This document shows positions 46,981-54,105 of a stretch of DNA of 64,000 nt, one piece after another. Where the stretch lies: NCBI RefSeq assembly GCF_009733815.1, contig NZ_WNXY01000003.1, positions 186,001 to 250,000 on the forward strand, written 5' to 3'. The position numbers were made by a program, and so were the translations under genes. This DNA is from Pseudactinotalea suaedae. Lineage in GTDB: Bacteria; Actinomycetota; Actinomycetes; Actinomycetales; Beutenbergiaceae. Positions within the stretch are counted from its first letter, which is position 1, and each line of letters starts with the position of its first letter. The notes beneath the pieces are model-generated. The model saw only the letters and a program-made list of their open reading frames with translations. It was not told the origin of the DNA and made no database searches.

Positions 46981-47520
46981 TCAGCTGCGGTCGGGCACCC
47001 AGCCCAGCAGCGCGAGGATCTCCTCGACGACGGCCTCCCGCGGGCGCCCGTCCGTGCTCACGACGTGGTCGTCGAGAGCGGCTCGGTCCAGGGTCGCCGC
47101 CAGCTCCGGGGCACGGGCCACGTGCCAGTCCCGCTCCGCGTCGGTGGCCGAGCGCGCGCTGACCCGCTCCTGCAGCACCGCCACCGGCGCAGTCAGCCGG
47201 ATCAGTGTCGGCCGCAGCCCGAGCGCCTCGGTGAGGTGGTCGCGCTGCGTCTTCGTCTCCACAACTCCCGCCAGCACCAGCGAGGTCATGCCGTGCCGGG
47301 CGTAGACCGCGGCGACCGCGGCCAGGTTCTCCCACGTCACGGCGAGCCGGAACGGGTCGCCCGGCGGCGCCGGCCATCCCGAGGCGAGATGGTCGAGGTC
47401 GACGACGGCGCCCGGCACCCCGGCCGCCGCGAGCGCCGTCCCCAGCGCGGACGCCGTGGAGGTCTTGCCCGAGCCGACGCTGCCGTTGAGCAGCACCGCA
47501 CGCCGCAGGGAGGGCGGCAT
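46981..47520 (-). CDS. P-loop ATPase / small kinase-like protein
   Basis: A 179-residue AAA-type nucleotide kinase-like protein. Walker A is VLLNGSVGSGKTSTASAL, with VVDLDHLASGWPAPPGDPF after it and an arginine-rich lid (QERVSARSATDAERDWHV). The pattern resembles adenylyl-sulfate/shikimate-type kinases and uncharacterised zeta-like ATPases; the substrate is unknown. The stop of the epimerase gene and this ATG overlap in TGATG, so the two are translationally coupled, suggesting a joint role in a nucleotide-sugar or antibiotic-modification step. Confidence 0.8.
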   Translation of the reverse strand: MPPSLRRAVLLNGSVGSGKTSTASALGTALAAAGVPGAVVDLDHLASGWPAPPGDPFRLAVTWENLAAVAAVYARHGMTSLVLAGVVETKTQRDHLTEALGLRPTLIRLTAPVAVLQERVSARSATDAERDWHVARAPELAATLDRAALDDHVVSTDGRPREAVVEEILALLGWVPDRS

Positions 47521-48509
47521 CAGCGGCTGCTGAGCGCCGTCAGCAGCTCGAGCTCCTCCGTGCGTGTCAGGCCGGCGCGACGACCGCGGTCGAAGCCGAG
47601 GCGGCGCTCGTCCGTGAGCGCCTCGTCGATCATGCGGCGGTAGGGACGCCAGCCCAGACCGGCGTCGCACGCGCGCCGCGAGGCACGCGTGACCGTCAGC
47701 TCATGGCCGGCGGGCAACCAGAACGGCAGCGACCGCGGCCCCATGAAGTAGCCGACACCCTGGGCCAGCAGCCAGTCGTGGTCGGCCGTGACGACCGGCC
47801 CGCTGTGCCCGGCGGCCGTGCGCGCCTGAGCGATCAGGTCGGTGAAGGCGATCGGCTGGCCGTAGGTGTCGTAGATGCCGTGCTGGCTCGGGTCGGCACC
47901 CACCGCGACGAGCCAGGTCGCCAGGTCCGCGGCGCTGACCGTCTGCACCTGTGCGTCGCCGAGGTCGGGCAGCAGCACCGGCTCGCCGCCCGCGCGGGCG
48001 AAGGCCGCGGGGTAGTACCCGAACCGGTCCGAGCCGTCGCCACGCCCGCCGATCAGCCCGGCGCGCGCGATCACGGCCCGGTCGCCGAGACGGGTCGTGA
48101 CGATGTTCTCGCACGCCACCTTCGCGCAGGCGTACTGGTCCGCATCGGCATGGTCGGCGTCGAGGGGGTCGTGGAGCGGGTCCGTCTCGTCACCGGCCGG
48201 GGTGTCCGTCGCGCGGTACACCGAGCCGGACGAGACGTAGGCCCAGCGGGCCGCCCGGTCACCCAGGGCGTCGACCGCCGAGCGCACGAGGCCAGGCTGC
48301 CACGCGACGTCGAGCACCAGGTCCCAGTCCCGGCCGCGCACGTCGTCGTACGCCCCGGGATCGGCGCGGTCCGCGCGCACGAGTCTCACGCCGTCGGGCA
48401 CCGCTGCGGTCCCACGCGCCAGCGCCGTGACCTCATGACCGCGGGCCAGACCGGCGCGGGCGATCTCCCCGCCGAGCCACCCGGTCCCTCCCAGCAGCAG
48501 CACGTCCAT
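47520..48509 (-). CDS. NAD-dependent epimerase/dehydratase family protein
   Basis: A 329-residue extended short-chain dehydrogenase. The Rossmann motif is LLLGGTGWLGGEIARAGL, strand 4 is AYVSSGSVYRATDTP, and the catalytic tyrosine/lysine pair lies in DADQYACAKVACE (YxxxK). The substrate is probably a nucleotide-linked or free sugar; the family has many roles. It is coupled to the small kinase by a TGATG overlap. Its upstream intergenic region (48510-48647) is C-rich and contains family B element copy 1. Confidence 0.87.
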   Translation of the reverse strand: MDVLLLGGTGWLGGEIARAGLARGHEVTALARGTAAVPDGVRLVRADRADPGAYDDVRGRDWDLVLDVAWQPGLVRSAVDALGDRAARWAYVSSGSVYRATDTPAGDETDPLHDPLDADHADADQYACAKVACENIVTTRLGDRAVIARAGLIGGRGDGSDRFGYYPAAFARAGGEPVLLPDLGDAQVQTVSAADLATWLVAVGADPSQHGIYDTYGQPIAFTDLIAQARTAAGHSGPVVTADHDWLLAQGVGYFMGPRSLPFWLPAGHELTVTRASRRACDAGLGWRPYRRMIDEALTDERRLGFDRGRRAGLTRTEELELLTALSSR

Positions 48510-48596
48510 CGCCCCACCTTGCCACGCCGGCCCCGGACCACCCGTCCCCCACGCCCCACCTCGGCCAGCCCGGCCCCACCCCGCCCAGCTCTCCCC

Positions 48597-48660
48597 TTCT
48601 CGTACCTGAGCGCGGTTCTCGTACCGTGCGCACTACGAGACGCGCGCTCAGGTACGAGAA
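48597..48660. repeat. Family B 64-bp palindromic element, copy 1
   Basis: Two forward TTCTCGTA units (48597 and 48616, 19 bases apart) are followed by two inverted TACGAGA units ending at 48641 and 48660, also 19 apart. The outer arms are a perfect 18-bp inverted repeat (48597-48614 with 48643-48660). The stop codon of the AbiEi-like gene (48648-48650) lies inside the right arm. A second copy of identical length lies on the other side of that gene. Confidence 0.88.
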
Positions 48661-49682
48661 CCGCGCCCGGGACGGAGCTGCAACGCGCGTCGTGCCGTCC
48701 GTCCGACCGGGACCGGGAACGCGTTGCGGAGCCGCTGGCCAACCGCAGGCGGATCGAGCAGGTCGGCTGTGGTGAACCGCTCGAACCGCACGATCGGCGC
48801 TGCAGTCCGCCGGATGAGGTCCTCCCGTTCCTTCTCTTCGAGGACGATCCTGGCCGCGCGCGCTGGGTCCCGTTCGTCGCCCGCGTACTTGACCGCGCCG
48901 TCGAACTCCGCCACCAGCAGCCAGCGACCCGCTGGGCCCTCGCCCTCCCACCCGAGGTCGGTGAAGAACTGTCGGGCCCTGGATGAGCAGACGATGCTGC
49001 ACATCCGGTTCCGGAAGGCCCGCGGTGAGTGCGATCCAACGCAACCGGCTCTCCGGCGGCGTGTCCGCGAAACCCGTGCCAGCGGCGATGACGGCGCGAG
49101 CCCGTACCACCCCCGGCACCGACCCGAGGCCGGAAGACGGCGCAGCACCGTCGCCCGCAGCCGTTCCTGCCGCACGACGGACTTCTCCCAGCGGTGCACC
49201 GACACCCGCGCGAGCCGTCGGAAGGCACTGTCGACCACGACCAGCGCCCGATCGGCGGGCAGGAACCGGGCGCAGTCGAGGATCGTGCGGACCGCTGCGG
49301 TGGCCGGCAGCCCTTCGATCACGATCACGTCATCGTCGACGAGCTGGGCACGCACGTGGCGCTCGACGTCATCCGTTCCGACGCCACCTGGGTTGACCGT
49401 CTGGATCAGCCGGATCCGATCGTCCACCGTCGCGACCGACCAACCGTGCAGCAGGGCTGCCGTCTCGTGGCTGAAGGCGAACCTGGTGGTGTAGGTCGCC
49501 GCCACCGCGACGCACCGCGCCAGCATCATCGTCCGACGACGCTCCCACCTCGCCTGCGCAGGATCCGGTCGGATGTAGGCGCCACGTCGCAGTCTCGTCA
49601 GGGCGCCGGCCTGGATCGCCGGGCGAAGCGTGTCGAACCCGTGATCGCGGGTCGTCATCACCTCGGGCAGCTCGATGGGCAT
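48648..49682 (-). CDS. AbiEi-like / DUF559-type protein with two compensating frameshifts
   Basis: A 344-codon frame. The N-terminal part (about residues 10-190) resembles AbiEi-type winged-helix antitoxin proteins: TLRPAIQAGALTRLRRGAYI, FSHETAALLHGWS, RTILDCARFLPADRALVVVD. The C-terminal part looks like a Vsr/DUF559 endonuclease fold (LVAEFDGAVKYAGDERDP, then VLEEKEREDLIRRTAAPIV). Between about 49106 and 48978 the true-looking protein is in another frame (VVRARAVIAAGTGFADTPPE, then LRWIALTAGLPEPDVQHRLL). So one base seems lost and later gained, leaving the frame open but about 43 residues scrambled. ATG 49682 has GAGG upstream; an in-frame duplicated ATGCCCATCGAG lies 18 bases before. No AbiEii toxin partner is adjacent. 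It is flanked by family B elements. Confidence 0.7.
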   Translation of the reverse strand: MPIELPEVMTTRDHGFDTLRPAIQAGALTRLRRGAYIRPDPAQARWERRRTMMLARCVAVAATYTTRFAFSHETAALLHGWSVATVDDRIRLIQTVNPGGVGTDDVERHVRAQLVDDDVIVIEGLPATAAVRTILDCARFLPADRALVVVDSAFRRLARVSVHRWEKSVVRQERLRATVLRRLPASGRCRGWYGLAPSSPLARVSRTRRRRAGCVGSHSPRAFRNRMCSIVCSSRARQFFTDLGWEGEGPAGRWLLVAEFDGAVKYAGDERDPARAARIVLEEKEREDLIRRTAAPIVRFERFTTADLLDPPAVGQRLRNAFPVPVGRTARRALQLRPGRGSRT

Positions 49683-49809
49683 GTCGACCTCGATGGGCAT
49701 GTCGACACCGTGGCCCACATCCACACAGGCCGGTAGGCGCGTCCCGTGGCTGCTGTGGATGGACGTGCATCGGCGAGCCCTGTGGATGACGCGCAGGATG
49801 CAGCCGACA

Positions 49810-49873
49810 TTCTCGTAGCTGAGCGCGGTTCTCGAACTGTGCACGCTACGAGAACCGCGCCACGTTACGAGAA
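49810..49873. repeat. Family B 64-bp palindromic element, copy 2
   Basis: Same layout and same 64-bp length as copy 1: forward TTCTCGTA (49810) and TTCTCGAA (49829), inverted TACGAGAA units ending at 49854 and 49873, all at 19-base spacing. It differs from copy 1 at scattered positions, mostly in the right half, and is in the same orientation, so the two are direct repeats about 1.2 kb apart around the AbiEi-like gene. Confidence 0.88.
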
Positions 49874-49929: not shown

Positions 49930-51546
49930 TCAGACCAGCGCCAGGTACTGATGGACGAAGGCGATGCCCATGCCACCCTCACCGACGCCCGCGGCGACCC
50001 GCTTGACCGAGCCCGAGCGGACATCACCGATGGCGAAGATGCCCGGGACGCTGGTCTCGAGCGCGAACGGACGGCGAGCGAGCGCCCAGTGCCCGCGCTC
50101 GGCGGCGTCGGGGCCGGTGGCCACGAAGCCGTGCTCGTCGCGTGCGATCTCCTGGGGCAACCACTGGGTGACCGCGTCCGCGCCGATCATGACGAACAGC
50201 ACCCGCGCCGGTCGTCGCGTGGTCGACCCCGTCTCGGCGTCGGGCCCGCGGACCTCGATCTCCTCCAGGTCGGCCTCGCCGTGGAGGGCGACCACCTGGC
50301 TGCGCGTCTCGACGCGGATCGCGGAGTTGGCGGCGATCTGATCGATCAGGTACCGCGACATGCTCGTCTCCAACGACGCGCCGCGCACCAGCATGGTGAC
50401 CGACCGCGCGAACCGCGAGAAGAAGATCGCAGCCTGACCGGCGGAGTTGCCCGCCCCGATGATCACGATGTCCTGCCCCGCGGTGAGCGCCGCGTCGCTG
50501 CGGGCCGCGCCGTAGTAGACGCCGCGTCCCAGATAGCTCTCGACGTTCGCCACCCCGAGCGTGCGCCACTCGACGCCCGTGGCGATCATGATGACGCGCG
50601 CACGCAGCGTCTGGCCGCCGTCGAGCACGACGGCGTGCTCGCCGGGTGTGAGCGAGGTGACCGACCGGGTCACGACGATCTCAGCACCCAGGCGCTTGGC
50701 CTGCTGCAGGGCGCGGCTCGCGAGCTCGTCCCCGGAGACACCGAAGGGGAAGCCGGTGTAGTTCTCGATCCGGCTGGACGTGCCGGCCTGCCCGCCCGGT
50801 GCCAGGCACTCGACGACCAGCGTCCGCAGCCCCTCGGCCGCGGCGTTCACCGCCGCCGTGAGGCCCGCGGGGCCGGCGCCCAGGATCACGACGTCGTACT
50901 CCTCGTGGGTCGGCTCGACGTCGAGCCCGACGGCCACGGCCGCCTCCCGCATCGTCGGCGCGAGCAGCCTGGTGCCGTCACGCAGCTCGAGGACCGGGTC
51001 GGTGACGACGTCGCCGTCGGGCAGCACCCGCTCGATCGCGACCTGGTTCCTGGTCAGGAACGTGGCGAGCTCACGCACACGGGCGTCGACGCGCGGTCCG
51101 TGCAGCCGGGCCACCGGGTCGGGCTGGGTGGCGGCCCAGGTCTGCAGATCGCCCAGGTAGCCGCGCGCGACATCGCCCACCGTGGTCGTCACCGAGGGCG
51201 CCATCGCCGCGAGCGTGTAGTACTCGGCGGGGCCGAGTCGCAGCACGCGCGAGGCCCGCGTCGCCCTGCCGCTGGCGGGGAACTTCGTGCTCAGCGTCAT
51301 CGGCACCTCGCCGAACGCCATGCCGTGGGTGCGCTCACCGATGACCCGTTCGTCGCCGTTGACGATCTTGGTGATCTCGACGTGACCCTCGAGCACCACG
51401 AACAGCGACCGCTCGTCGCCCTCGTGCGCGAAGTACTCACCCGGGACGAGGTGGATGTCCTCGACCGCTCCGACCAGGTGATCCAGGGCCGGCTGCTCGA
51501 GCGCGGCGAACAAGGGGACCTCGCGGAGCTCCGCGCTCGTGATCAC
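49930..51546 (-). CDS. Cyclic-nucleotide-binding domain fused to a thioredoxin-reductase-like flavoprotein lacking CxxC
   Basis: A 538-residue protein. Residues 10-115 are a cNMP-binding domain (VPGEYFAHEGDERSLFVVLE, HGMAFGEVPMTL). Residues 150-208 look like a degenerate thioredoxin fold (ATFLTRNQVAIERVLPDG, then DGTRLLAP). Residues 215-538 are a class II pyridine nucleotide-disulfide oxidoreductase with FAD motif GAGPAG (223-228), NADPH motif GAGNSAG (364-370) and the closing FAIGDVRSG. At the place of the redox-active Cys-x-x-Cys (about 343-350) the sequence is VYYGAARSDA, so it cannot reduce thioredoxin in the classical way. The start is GTG at 51546. It is 48 bases downstream of purL but probably independent. 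Confidence 0.9.
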   Translation of the reverse strand: MITSAELREVPLFAALEQPALDHLVGAVEDIHLVPGEYFAHEGDERSLFVVLEGHVEITKIVNGDERVIGERTHGMAFGEVPMTLSTKFPASGRATRASRVLRLGPAEYYTLAAMAPSVTTTVGDVARGYLGDLQTWAATQPDPVARLHGPRVDARVRELATFLTRNQVAIERVLPDGDVVTDPVLELRDGTRLLAPTMREAAVAVGLDVEPTHEEYDVVILGAGPAGLTAAVNAAAEGLRTLVVECLAPGGQAGTSSRIENYTGFPFGVSGDELASRALQQAKRLGAEIVVTRSVTSLTPGEHAVVLDGGQTLRARVIMIATGVEWRTLGVANVESYLGRGVYYGAARSDAALTAGQDIVIIGAGNSAGQAAIFFSRFARSVTMLVRGASLETSMSRYLIDQIAANSAIRVETRSQVVALHGEADLEEIEVRGPDAETGSTTRRPARVLFVMIGADAVTQWLPQEIARDEHGFVATGPDAAERGHWALARRPFALETSVPGIFAIGDVRSGSVKRVAAGVGEGGMGIAFVHQYLALV

Positions 51547-51594: not shown

Positions 51595-53922
51595 TCAGCC
51601 GAACGCCTGCGGCAAGGTGCGCCCGCTGACGTCGCGAAGCTCGCTGACCGGGATGCTCACCTCGTTCGCCCCCGGCAGCGTGAGCGTCAGGCTGTCGCCG
51701 CCCGTGACACCGACACCGGCTGCCGGCACGCCGTGCTCGGCGGCGAGCAGCAGGAGGCGGTCACGGTGATCCGCGCGCACGGCGACCAGCGCGCGGGCGC
51801 CGGACTCGCTGAAGAGCGCGGACGTGGCGTCGACGCCGTCACGCGTCGCCGGCTCCTCGAGCGCGACGGTGGCACCCAGGCCGAACCGCAGCACGCTGTC
51901 GACGAGGGTCTGGGCCAGCCCACCGACCGAGACGTCGTGCGCGGCGGTCACGAAACCTCCGCTCGAGGCCTGCACCAGCACCTGCGCGAGCGCGCGCTCG
52001 GCCGTCAGGTCCGCCATCGGCGGGCGGCCGCCGAGGTGGCCGTGCACCACGCCCGACCACGCCGATCCGGAGAGCTCCTCGCGGGTGGTCCCGAGCAGCA
52101 CCAGCTCGAGACCGTCCTCGCGCCAGCCCGACGGTGTCACCCGAGCCACGTCGTCCAGGACCCCGAGCACCCCGATCACCGGGGTGGGGTTGATCGAGGC
52201 GTCGATGTGCCCGACGCCGACGTCACCGGCCAGGGTCGAGTTGTACAAGGACACGTTGCCGCCGGTCACCGGGACGCCGAGCTCGGCGCACGCGTCCGCG
52301 AGGCCGGTGATCGTCTGCACCAGCTGCCACATCGCGTCGGGGTCCTCGGGCGAGCCGATGTTGAGGCAGTCCGTCACCGCGAGCGGCCGCGCACCGACCG
52401 TGGCGACGTTCCGATAGGCCTCGGCGAGCGCGAGCTGGGCACCCGTGTACGGGTCGAGCTTGCTGAACCGGCCGTTGGCGTCGGTCGCGATGGCGACCCC
52501 GAGCCCGCTCTCCTCGTCGACGCGGACCACGCCGGCGTCGTCGGGCTGGGCGAGCGCGGTGTTGCCCTGCACGTACCTGTCGTACTGGTCGGTCACCCAG
52601 GACTTGCTCGCCAGGTTCGGGGAGCCGGCGACGGCGAGCACCTGAGCGCGCAGCTCCGCCGCCGTGCCGGCCCGCGGCAGGGCCTCGGCGGCGTCGGCGT
52701 TGAGGGCGTCCTGCCAGGCCGGCCGCGCGTGGGGGCGGTCGTACACCGGGCCGTCGTGCGCGACGGTGCGCGGGTCCACGTCGACGATGCGGTGACCGTG
52801 GTGGTCGATGGTGAGCCGACCGGTGCCGGTGACCTCGCCGATGACGGCGGACTCGACGTCCCACTTGGTGGTGATCGCCAGGAAGGCGTCGAGCTTGTCG
52901 GGCGTGACCACCGCCATCATCCGCTCCTGCGACTCCGACATCAGGATCTCGCCCGCGGTCAGGCTGGGGTCGCGCAGCAGCACGTTCTCGAGGTCGACGT
53001 GCATGCCGCCGTCGCCGTTGCTGGCGAGCTCGGAGGTGGCGCAGGAGATGCCGGCCGCGCCCAGGTCCTGGATGCCCTCGACCACGCCGGCGGCGAACAG
53101 CTCGAGGCAGCACTCGATGAGCACCTTCTCCATGAAGGGGTCACCGACCTGCACGCTGGGCCGCTTGGACGGCTTGTCGGCGTCGAAGGTCTCGGAGGCG
53201 AGGATCGAGGCACCGCCGATGCCGTCGCCGCCGGTGCGCGCACCGAAGAGGACCACCTTGTTGCCGGCACCGGAGGCGTTGGCGAGGTGGATGTCGTCGT
53301 GGCGCAGCACCCCCACGCACAGCGCGTTGACGAGCGGGTTGCGCTGGTAGGAGCTGTCGAACTCGGTCTCACCGCCGATGTTGGGCAGGCCCAGGCTGTT
53401 GCCGTAGCCGCCGACGCCACTGACGACGCCATGGACCACGCGTGCGGTGTCGGGGTGGTCGATCGCACCGAAGCGGAGCTGGTCCATGACCGCGACCGGG
53501 CGTGCGCCCATCGAGATGATGTCGCGCACGATCCCGCCGACGCCGGTCGCCGCACCTTGGTAGGGCTCGACGTAGCTGGGGTGGTTGTGGGACTCGACCT
53601 TGAACGTCACGGCCCAGCCGTCGCCGATGTCGACGACGCCCGCGTTCTCCCCGATGCCGACCAGCAGGTGCTCGCGCATCTCCTCGGTGGTCTTCTCGCC
53701 GAACTGCGCCAGGTGGATCTTGGACGACTTGTAGGAGCAGTGCTCGGACCACATCACCGAGTACATCGCGAGCTCGGCGTTGGTGGGCCGACGGCCGAGG
53801 ATCTCGCGGATCCGGGCGTACTCGTCGTCCGCCAGGCCCAGCTCCCGGTACGGCTGCTCGAGATCGGGGGTGGCGGCGGCGGTCTCAATCGTGTCGGCAG
53901 GGCCGGCAGCAGCAGGGGTCAC
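51595..53922 (-). CDS. purL: Phosphoribosylformylglycinamidine synthase subunit PurL
   Basis: A 775-residue small-type PurL, which with PurS and PurQ converts FGAR to FGAM. Signatures: [70 protein letters not shown], and [15 protein letters not shown] in the second half. purS and purQ are not visible here. GTG at 53922 was chosen because AAGGAAG lies 5 bases upstream; the GTG two codons earlier (53928) abuts that ribosome-binding site. It is divergent from the beta-propeller lipoprotein gene. Confidence 0.96.
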
Positions 53923-54105
53923 GTGCACTTCCTTCGGGCGCGGGCAGGCGGGGCCAAATCTACGTCAGCCGCGGCGGGTGGGACGAAGGCGTCCACGGCC
54001 GGTGGCCGCCCCGCCGTCGAGAACCGAGCCCCGGCCGCGCGTCGGCGAGGCGACCGCCACGACAGAGGGTTGAAACCGGGACGTCGCTGGTGACACAGAG
54101 AGGAC

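Follow-up and report, generated by a model that had tools for sequence, protein, structure and literature searches.

In the window, by which we mean the whole 64-kb stretch of DNA analysed, an apparently decayed gene of the AbiEi/DUF559 type is located between two 64-bp palindromes (Table 1). The first-pass annotation had described these as four-unit palindromes around such a gene, each with two forward and two inverted units at 19-bp spacing, and both the coordinates and the architecture were confirmed, with a single one-mismatch unit in each element. In element 1 the TTCTCGTA-type units are found at 48597 and 48616 (forward), 48634 (inverted, with the mismatch) and 48653 (inverted), in element 2 at 49810 (forward), 49829 (forward, with the mismatch), 49847 and 49866 (both inverted), and the spacing is 19 bp in each arm of both. 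The two elements are 83% identical. All six occurrences of TTCTCGTA in the 64-kb window are inside one of the elements, while 0.27 are expected, and the two-unit arm (up to three mismatches) occurs four times against an expected 0.03. The elements had also been said to lie in the same orientation; aligned as direct or as inverted copies, the pair gives 83% either way, so its orientation is undecidable. Element 1 contains the stop codon (48648-48650) of the 459-codon frame, as had been noticed before, and the 3' element of the orthologue in Actinotalea caeni JCM 30447 likewise contains that of its gene.

Table 1. Features of the window around the bracketed gene
Feature	Position	Strand	Remarks
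NAD-dependent epimerase/dehydratase-type gene	47520..48509	-	left border of the syntenic site in A. caeni (G001) and G002
Element 1, 64-bp palindrome	48597..48660	.	at the 3' end of the gene, holds its stop codon
Decayed AbiEi/DUF559-type gene	48648..49700	-	AbiEi-like N-terminal part, Vsr-fold nuclease C-terminal part; 55-58% amino acid identity to the A. caeni orthologue
Segment with the homologous protein in another frame	48977..49119	-	apparent paired frameshifts; borders approximate, inferred from ORF 48433-49119 compared with homologues
Element 2, 64-bp palindrome	49810..49873	.	upstream of the gene
cNMP-binding and pyridine nucleotide-disulphide oxidoreductase gene	49930..51546	-	between element 2 and the purL-type gene
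Presumably purL-type gene (named from its sequence)	51595..53928	-	right border of the syntenic site in A. caeni (G001) and G002

The start codon of the window gene was picked by eye from homology. An exact 18-bp tandem duplication (49671-49706) at the 5' end of the gene repeats the MPIEV/L-type start, so that two start codons are possible. Since the middle part of the homologous protein is found in another frame (ORF 48433-49119), the 459-aa frame seems to be interrupted by a compensating pair of frameshifts at inferred positions of about 49.1 and 48.98 kb; this interruption may be an assembly error. The out-of-frame segment contains the invariant Glu of the family (E209 in A. caeni numbering). 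Scanned directly against Pfam, the window ORF matches no family, whereas its homologues do. The gene product is 55-58% identical to its A. caeni orthologue, whereas the epimerase is 78% and the purL-type protein 91% identical to theirs; the decay of the window gene inflates its divergence relative to the neighbours.

The gene has the same place, between the epimerase gene and the purL-type gene, in the window genome and in A. caeni. In the sister species G002 the same two neighbours are about 85 bp apart, with neither the gene nor any element between them, i.e. an empty site of the kind that had been proposed as a check in sister strains. The cNMP-binding/oxidoreductase gene is absent at the matching site in both A. 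caeni and G002. When an A. caeni element (L106) was compared with the window in search of an empty site, the region differed by about 3 kb and was of no use for this purpose.

Dispersed copies of the elements

The window genome (4.54 Mb) contains four copies of the element, the two in the window and two solo copies, one between genes that we take to be ksgA-like and rpf-like, the other over the 3' end of a presumably glycosidase-like gene (all named from their sequences). The ksgA/rpf copy is absent at the corresponding place in A. caeni and in G002; since the intergenic alignment is loose at this site, the exact ends of the element are not fixed there. Among the 24 genomes of the family the full pattern (up to three mismatches) was found solely in the window genome (4 copies) and in A. 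caeni (11), which also has the closest homologue of the window gene (58%). A search for the exact 24 fixed bases across 84,980 species genomes returned 45 copies in 25 stretches, all of them in A. caeni JCM 30447, from a collection that may omit the window genome or a near one (three of the four copies of the window genome match the exact pattern). Many of the A. caeni copies are clustered 126-255 bp apart, mostly in one orientation, and the rest are single. Only 3 of the 45 lie more than half inside gene-like ORFs, compared with 79% of random positions, as judged with our own gene caller. The many intergenic copies that the first-pass annotation had named as support for its proposal are thus present, and the element is confined neither to the two window sites nor to this genome.

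The uninterrupted gene of A. caeni goes with 45 exact copies and the frameshifted gene of the window genome with 4. A. caeni has one close homologue and one distant (37%). Three further homologues are present in the window genome (C11:54273-55247, C16:122245-123219 and C14:107656-108484; L048, L057 and L060); two of these have their own, different elements, and the third is in two pieces, with no element found.

Other dispersed motifs were seen in the relatives. An element with the motif GACCGA is present in 8 copies in G008, two of them at the gene, and in none of 23 relatives. A GAGTCAG element has 17 copies in G003 and weaker matches in G005, G012 and G013 (5, 1 and 2). In G005, a draft genome of 89% completeness, five GAGTCAG/GAGTTAG four-unit elements were noticed (e.g. 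C316:5870-5935), and the window protein found no homologue there at E 1e-6. Compensated changes between the arms numbered 22 in G003 (17 copies) against a shuffled mean of 9.0, and 16 in G008 (8 copies) against 8.5. In the 44 distinct copies of A. caeni there were 35 compensated changes versus 50.1 after shuffling (p 0.99), and most of the dinucleotides at the centre are non-complementary. A strict hairpin rule was therefore not upheld in A. caeni, where arm pairing is no better than shuffled, and these sequences argue against a strict hairpin substrate in this species.

Matching flanks across the gene family

Homologues of the window protein were found in 16 of the 24 family genomes (E 1e-6) and, in a sample of 148 genomes from the class, in 105 (E 1e-10). 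One hundred loci were examined, 30 from the family search, 30 from the class search and 40 more picked among the best of the class matches listed; exclusion of one locus without a usable flank, one repeated locus and six near-duplicates left 92 non-redundant loci. In 75 of these the left and the right flank score higher against each other than the 99th percentile of 920 cross-locus pairs, while none of 76 control pairs taken 950-1400 bp away exceeded it; 9 of the 92 loci gave no flank signal at all. The top cross-locus score, 149, is higher than all but two own-locus scores, probably because the loci concerned belong to one subfamily. Among the first 60 loci (one locus was entered twice in this count) a palindrome score of at least 23 was reached by 56 of 120 near flanks, by none of 120 Markov shuffles and by none of 106 distant flanks. 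Set against the distant flanks, the bracketing is specific to this gene family, so that the refuting outcome named in the first-pass annotation, elements just as frequent next to unrelated genes, does not hold, and the layout proposed from the window, resembling REP palindromes with their RAYT genes but with a different protein class, extends well beyond it. A purely local feature was rejected as an explanation because copies and bracketing are found across the class, and ordinary terminators were rejected as a full account because the left and right copies share locus-specific sequence.

The element sequences are mostly specific to their locus and differ even between proteins of 40-50% identity, though the left and right copies agree. 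When 32 elements were compared pairwise, a single pair was strongly alike, and it came from close homologues. Protein similarity was a weak predictor of element similarity, with a Spearman coefficient of 0.15 for either domain, because the elements change too fast.

The orientation of the flank pairs varies. Among 78 matched loci 41 pairs are inverted, 23 direct and 14 undecided; in the 39 pairs of the window's own, palindromic type the figures are 13, 15 and 11. Flanks that match without a strong palindrome (23 loci, several kinds mixed) are inverted in 19 cases and direct in 4. Direct pairs with CTTGGCACG-type units, seen at L169, L170 and L203, make up a third type of flank.

A second element type in genus g52

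The elements of genus g52 measure about 75-90 bp, have the outer end TGATCACGTTCA, and their bracketing copies are inverted. The same ends also form inverted pairs without a gene, 11 of which were read and measured 184-196 bp end to end. With query elements taken from G167, itself one of the five high-copy genomes, and with 40 candidates scored, at least 30-47 matches, some of them partial, were obtained in each of the five genomes that have an uninterrupted homologue of 65-100% identity. The homologue of G157 (80%) has an internal stop, and this genome has 2 copies, which flank the gene. G136 gave 5 matches and has no homologue at 1e-25, and G171, G174 and G175 gave no match to the query element. 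G147 and G173 have uninterrupted homologues of 62-63% and likewise no match; their elements keep the outer end and differ in the interior. Over the 12 genomes, such a grouping would arise by chance in 1 of 792 cases for the five-genome group, whose 65% identity border was set after the data had been seen, and in 21 of 792 for all seven uninterrupted homologues. Together with Actinotalea, an uninterrupted gene goes with a high copy number in two genera; the correlation of an intact gene with copy number gives no direction.

In seven g52 genomes the gene is found at one syntenic site, with both flanks matching in six of them and one in G167, where the contig ends. In two of the seven, G082 and G147, the gene unit faces the other way with respect to its neighbours (L195-L202), as if it flipped between its inverted elements. 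The eighth genome, G157, is different: the neighbours of its gene (L198) match those of none of the other g52 genomes, and the homology to the relatives stops where the two elements have their outer TGATCA ends. On this comparison the unit, which is 1,064 bp long in G157 and 1,200-1,240 bp in the other g52 genomes, has moved at least once or has entered G157 from elsewhere. Since the unit is off its usual site, the 2 copies of G157 may mean that the system arrived recently, and not that it decayed. Inspection by eye of the 11 inverted pairs and the G157 unit showed constant TGATCA ends and no target-site duplication. The GC-rich sequence flanking several inverted pairs (L175-L185) beyond their TGATCA ends was noticed by eye to be itself partly an inverted repeat, which may reflect insertion into older palindromes or terminators.

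The G157 unit is the one case in favour of the small mobile or domesticated unit that the first-pass annotation had considered. Frequent movement is not supported, since the gene keeps one syntenic place in both Actinotalea species that have it and in the seven g52 genomes, and the A. caeni protein has no plasmid match at 1e-10. Carriage as phage or plasmid cargo was rejected as well, the same protein having a single weak, partial phage match.

These data bear on the reading that we are dealing with an ordinary transposable element, the bracketing elements being its ends and the inverted pairs of about 185 bp its MITEs, moved by cut or copy and paste, either by the AbiEi-nuclease protein or by an unrelated transposase. 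As in MITEs and insertion sequences, the inverted ends of g52 are common to the gene unit and to short non-coding units, a feature seen in the g52 type and not in the window's type, and one unit is found at a new site with homology stopping at the element ends. However, no transposase-like family was matched by any of 48 homologues, the gene stays at one place in seven of the eight g52 genomes, the palindromic type has no fixed orientation, the A. caeni copies are single or tandemly clustered and mostly in one orientation, and the target-site duplications looked for by eye were not seen. We regard this reading as unlikely, though the best placed of the alternatives, and the G157 unit leaves true transposition open.

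The protein and its proposed role

The A. caeni protein was modelled with 48 homologues (pLDDT 92.2, pTM 0.90). The best structural match of residues 4-201 is the AbiEi antitoxin 6y8q (Z 10.1, 5.5 A over 165 residues), and that of residues 206-322 is 3r3p, the catalytic domain of the homing endonuclease I-Bth0305I, with Z 8.5 and 2.7 A for 96 residues; Vsr follows with Z 7.2. A Z value near 8 is ambiguous by itself, as it can reflect a common arrangement, but the Pfam matches agree with the fold assignment: up to E 0.1, the 48 homologues match AbiEi_4 (32), AbiEi_1 (12), the MTES_1575 REase family (13) and DUF559 (8). MTES_1575 is described as a Vsr-fold REase (PMC3710099). The PADLOC AbiEi models match all ten members of set A1. 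NCBIfam gave no useful family, and searching the solved structures by sequence was of no help either. Residues E209, D240, E255, D257, G258 and R282 are invariant in the 48 homologues; no His-x-His is conserved in them, the conserved residues being E209, D240, E255, D257 and K261. No HUH or DDE transposase is among the fold matches listed, an absence that carries no weight. The protein is thus predicted to consist of an AbiEi-antitoxin fold and a Vsr-fold nuclease with invariant acidic residues, nearest to I-Bth0305I.

The nearest fold, together with the empty site in G002, would suit a solitary homing endonuclease that cuts a single element, repair then copying the gene in between two whole elements and the scattered elements being potential sites. 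The target on which I-Bth0305I dimerises is described as nearly 60 bp long (PMC3943268), about the size of the 64-bp element. The likeness to the EDxHD homing endonucleases and Vsr lies in the predicted catalytic fold, and a shared EDxHD-endonuclease fold by itself shows no function; the protein differs from these enzymes in its AbiEi-like DNA-binding part and in its weak link to phages, and the gene is not inside a disrupted target but has whole elements on both sides, which would leave them still cuttable. Moreover, the G002 site has no element instead of one, the 45 exact elements of A. caeni go with one close and one distant homologue, and homing predicts direct pairs, whereas 19 of the 23 non-palindromic pairs are inverted. 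We consider homing improbable, more so than transposition.

The N-terminal part has the fold of the AbiE type IV toxin-antitoxin proteins (AbiEi; Rv2827c), and by analogy a winged-helix protein of this kind is expected to bind inverted repeats. AbiEi proteins are described as binding promoter inverted repeats, through which AbiEi and Rv2827c autoregulate (PMC7319586). Differences from AbiE are the added nuclease domain and the presence of cognate elements on both sides of the gene and elsewhere in the genome, and neither of the two immediate neighbours in the window, the epimerase and the redox gene, is an AbiEii (DUF1814) toxin gene. That the palindromes are operators of an orphan AbiEi-type repressor, the scattered copies being a regulon or terminators, fits one element lying upstream of the gene and the copies being intergenic, but it is the least likely of the alternatives, given the elements on both sides with the stop codon inside one in the window and in A. 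caeni, the tandem clusters and inverted pairs, the solo copy missing from the corresponding place in two sister species, and the invariant nuclease residues.

On balance, though with considerable reserve, we favour the reading that the window contains a decayed member of a two-part system, in which a chromosomal gene, encoding a fusion of an AbiEi-type DNA-binding protein with a Vsr-fold nuclease, goes with its own 64-bp palindromes, spread by break repair. In such a system two or more elements would bracket the gene and others be scattered between genes. The winged-helix and AbiEi N-terminal part of a dimer or tetramer would read the four repeated units, two per arm and 19-20 bp apart, i.e. 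about two helical turns, and two nuclease domains would thereby be placed at the centre of the palindrome (NN-GTGCAC-NN in A. caeni), where they would nick or cut. Repair of the break, templated by other copies, would keep the copies alike and occasionally place new ones, while the whole element-gene-element unit would move rarely. Gene and elements would remain cognate and diverge together, and when the gene is broken the copy number would fall or stay low. What was observed is the bracketing, the agreement of the two sides within a locus, the dispersal and intergenic placement of the copies, the link between an uninterrupted gene and copy number, the one unit at a new site and, as a prediction, the fold with its conserved acidic residues; binding of the element, cutting at its centre and spread by break repair are inferred. 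The size of the I-Bth0305I target, the binding of inverted repeats by AbiEi proteins and the compensated arm changes of G003 and G008 also speak for this reading. Against it speak the arms of A. caeni, the variable orientation of the flank pairs, the nine loci without signal, and the cases of G005, G136, G147 and G173. To our knowledge, hydrolytic Vsr-fold nucleases have no strand-joining activity, thus the spread would need host repair or another enzyme.

The RAYT genes with their REP sequences are the well-known example, in bacteria, of a gene that has dispersed palindromes of its own, and they raise the question of why such pairs are retained in genomes. RAYT genes are described as flanked by REPs, co-diverging with them and keeping their place while the REPs change, their presence going with REP abundance (PMC2817692), and REPINs as inverted REP pairs (PMC3116915). 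The system proposed here resembles them in the gene between cognate palindromes, in the mainly extragenic dispersed copies, in the inverted pairs, in orthologues at the same place carrying different repeats, and in the copy number following the presence of the gene, with the exceptions of G005, G136, G147 and G173. It differs in the protein, which has an AbiEi fold and a Vsr-fold nuclease here and is a HUH tyrosine transposase of the IS200/IS605 type in RAYT, in the length of the elements (64 to about 86 bp) and in the flank pairs, which are not always inverted. REPs are described as having a conserved tetranucleotide, GT(A/G)G, at their head (PMC2817692, PMC3733652); here GTAG is found in some units (CTCGTAG), is not conserved in the 45 A. 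caeni copies and is not common to the motifs of the other loci. Since both the HUH transposase and a conserved GTAG head are missing, the system would work like RAYT/REP without being a member of it. Among the open-access papers listed, no earlier description was seen that joins this AbiEi/Vsr-fold protein class with such repeats.

A wider claim, that actinomycetes independently evolved a counterpart of RAYT/REPIN in which a mostly vertically inherited, hydrolytic Vsr-fold nuclease with an AbiEi-type reader founds, spreads and maintains rapidly diversifying palindromes, is put forward more tentatively and falls somewhat short of probable. Actinomycetes often carry a nuclease-like gene between matching palindromes that can also be scattered over the genome, a layout like that of a known repeat-spreading system with an unrelated protein. 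If the proposed reading is true, this second protein with the RAYT/REP layout would allow a comparative test of why such pairs persist, and many single 'AbiEi/DUF559' genes of this class would be repeat-maintaining enzymes and not antitoxins. The arrangement offers a likely target sequence for a large family that matches antitoxin models or domains of unknown function in Pfam and PADLOC, and since the element sits next to the gene, the specificity of DNA binding and cleavage is directly testable. The fast divergence of the site together with its reader would represent a natural experiment in specificity.
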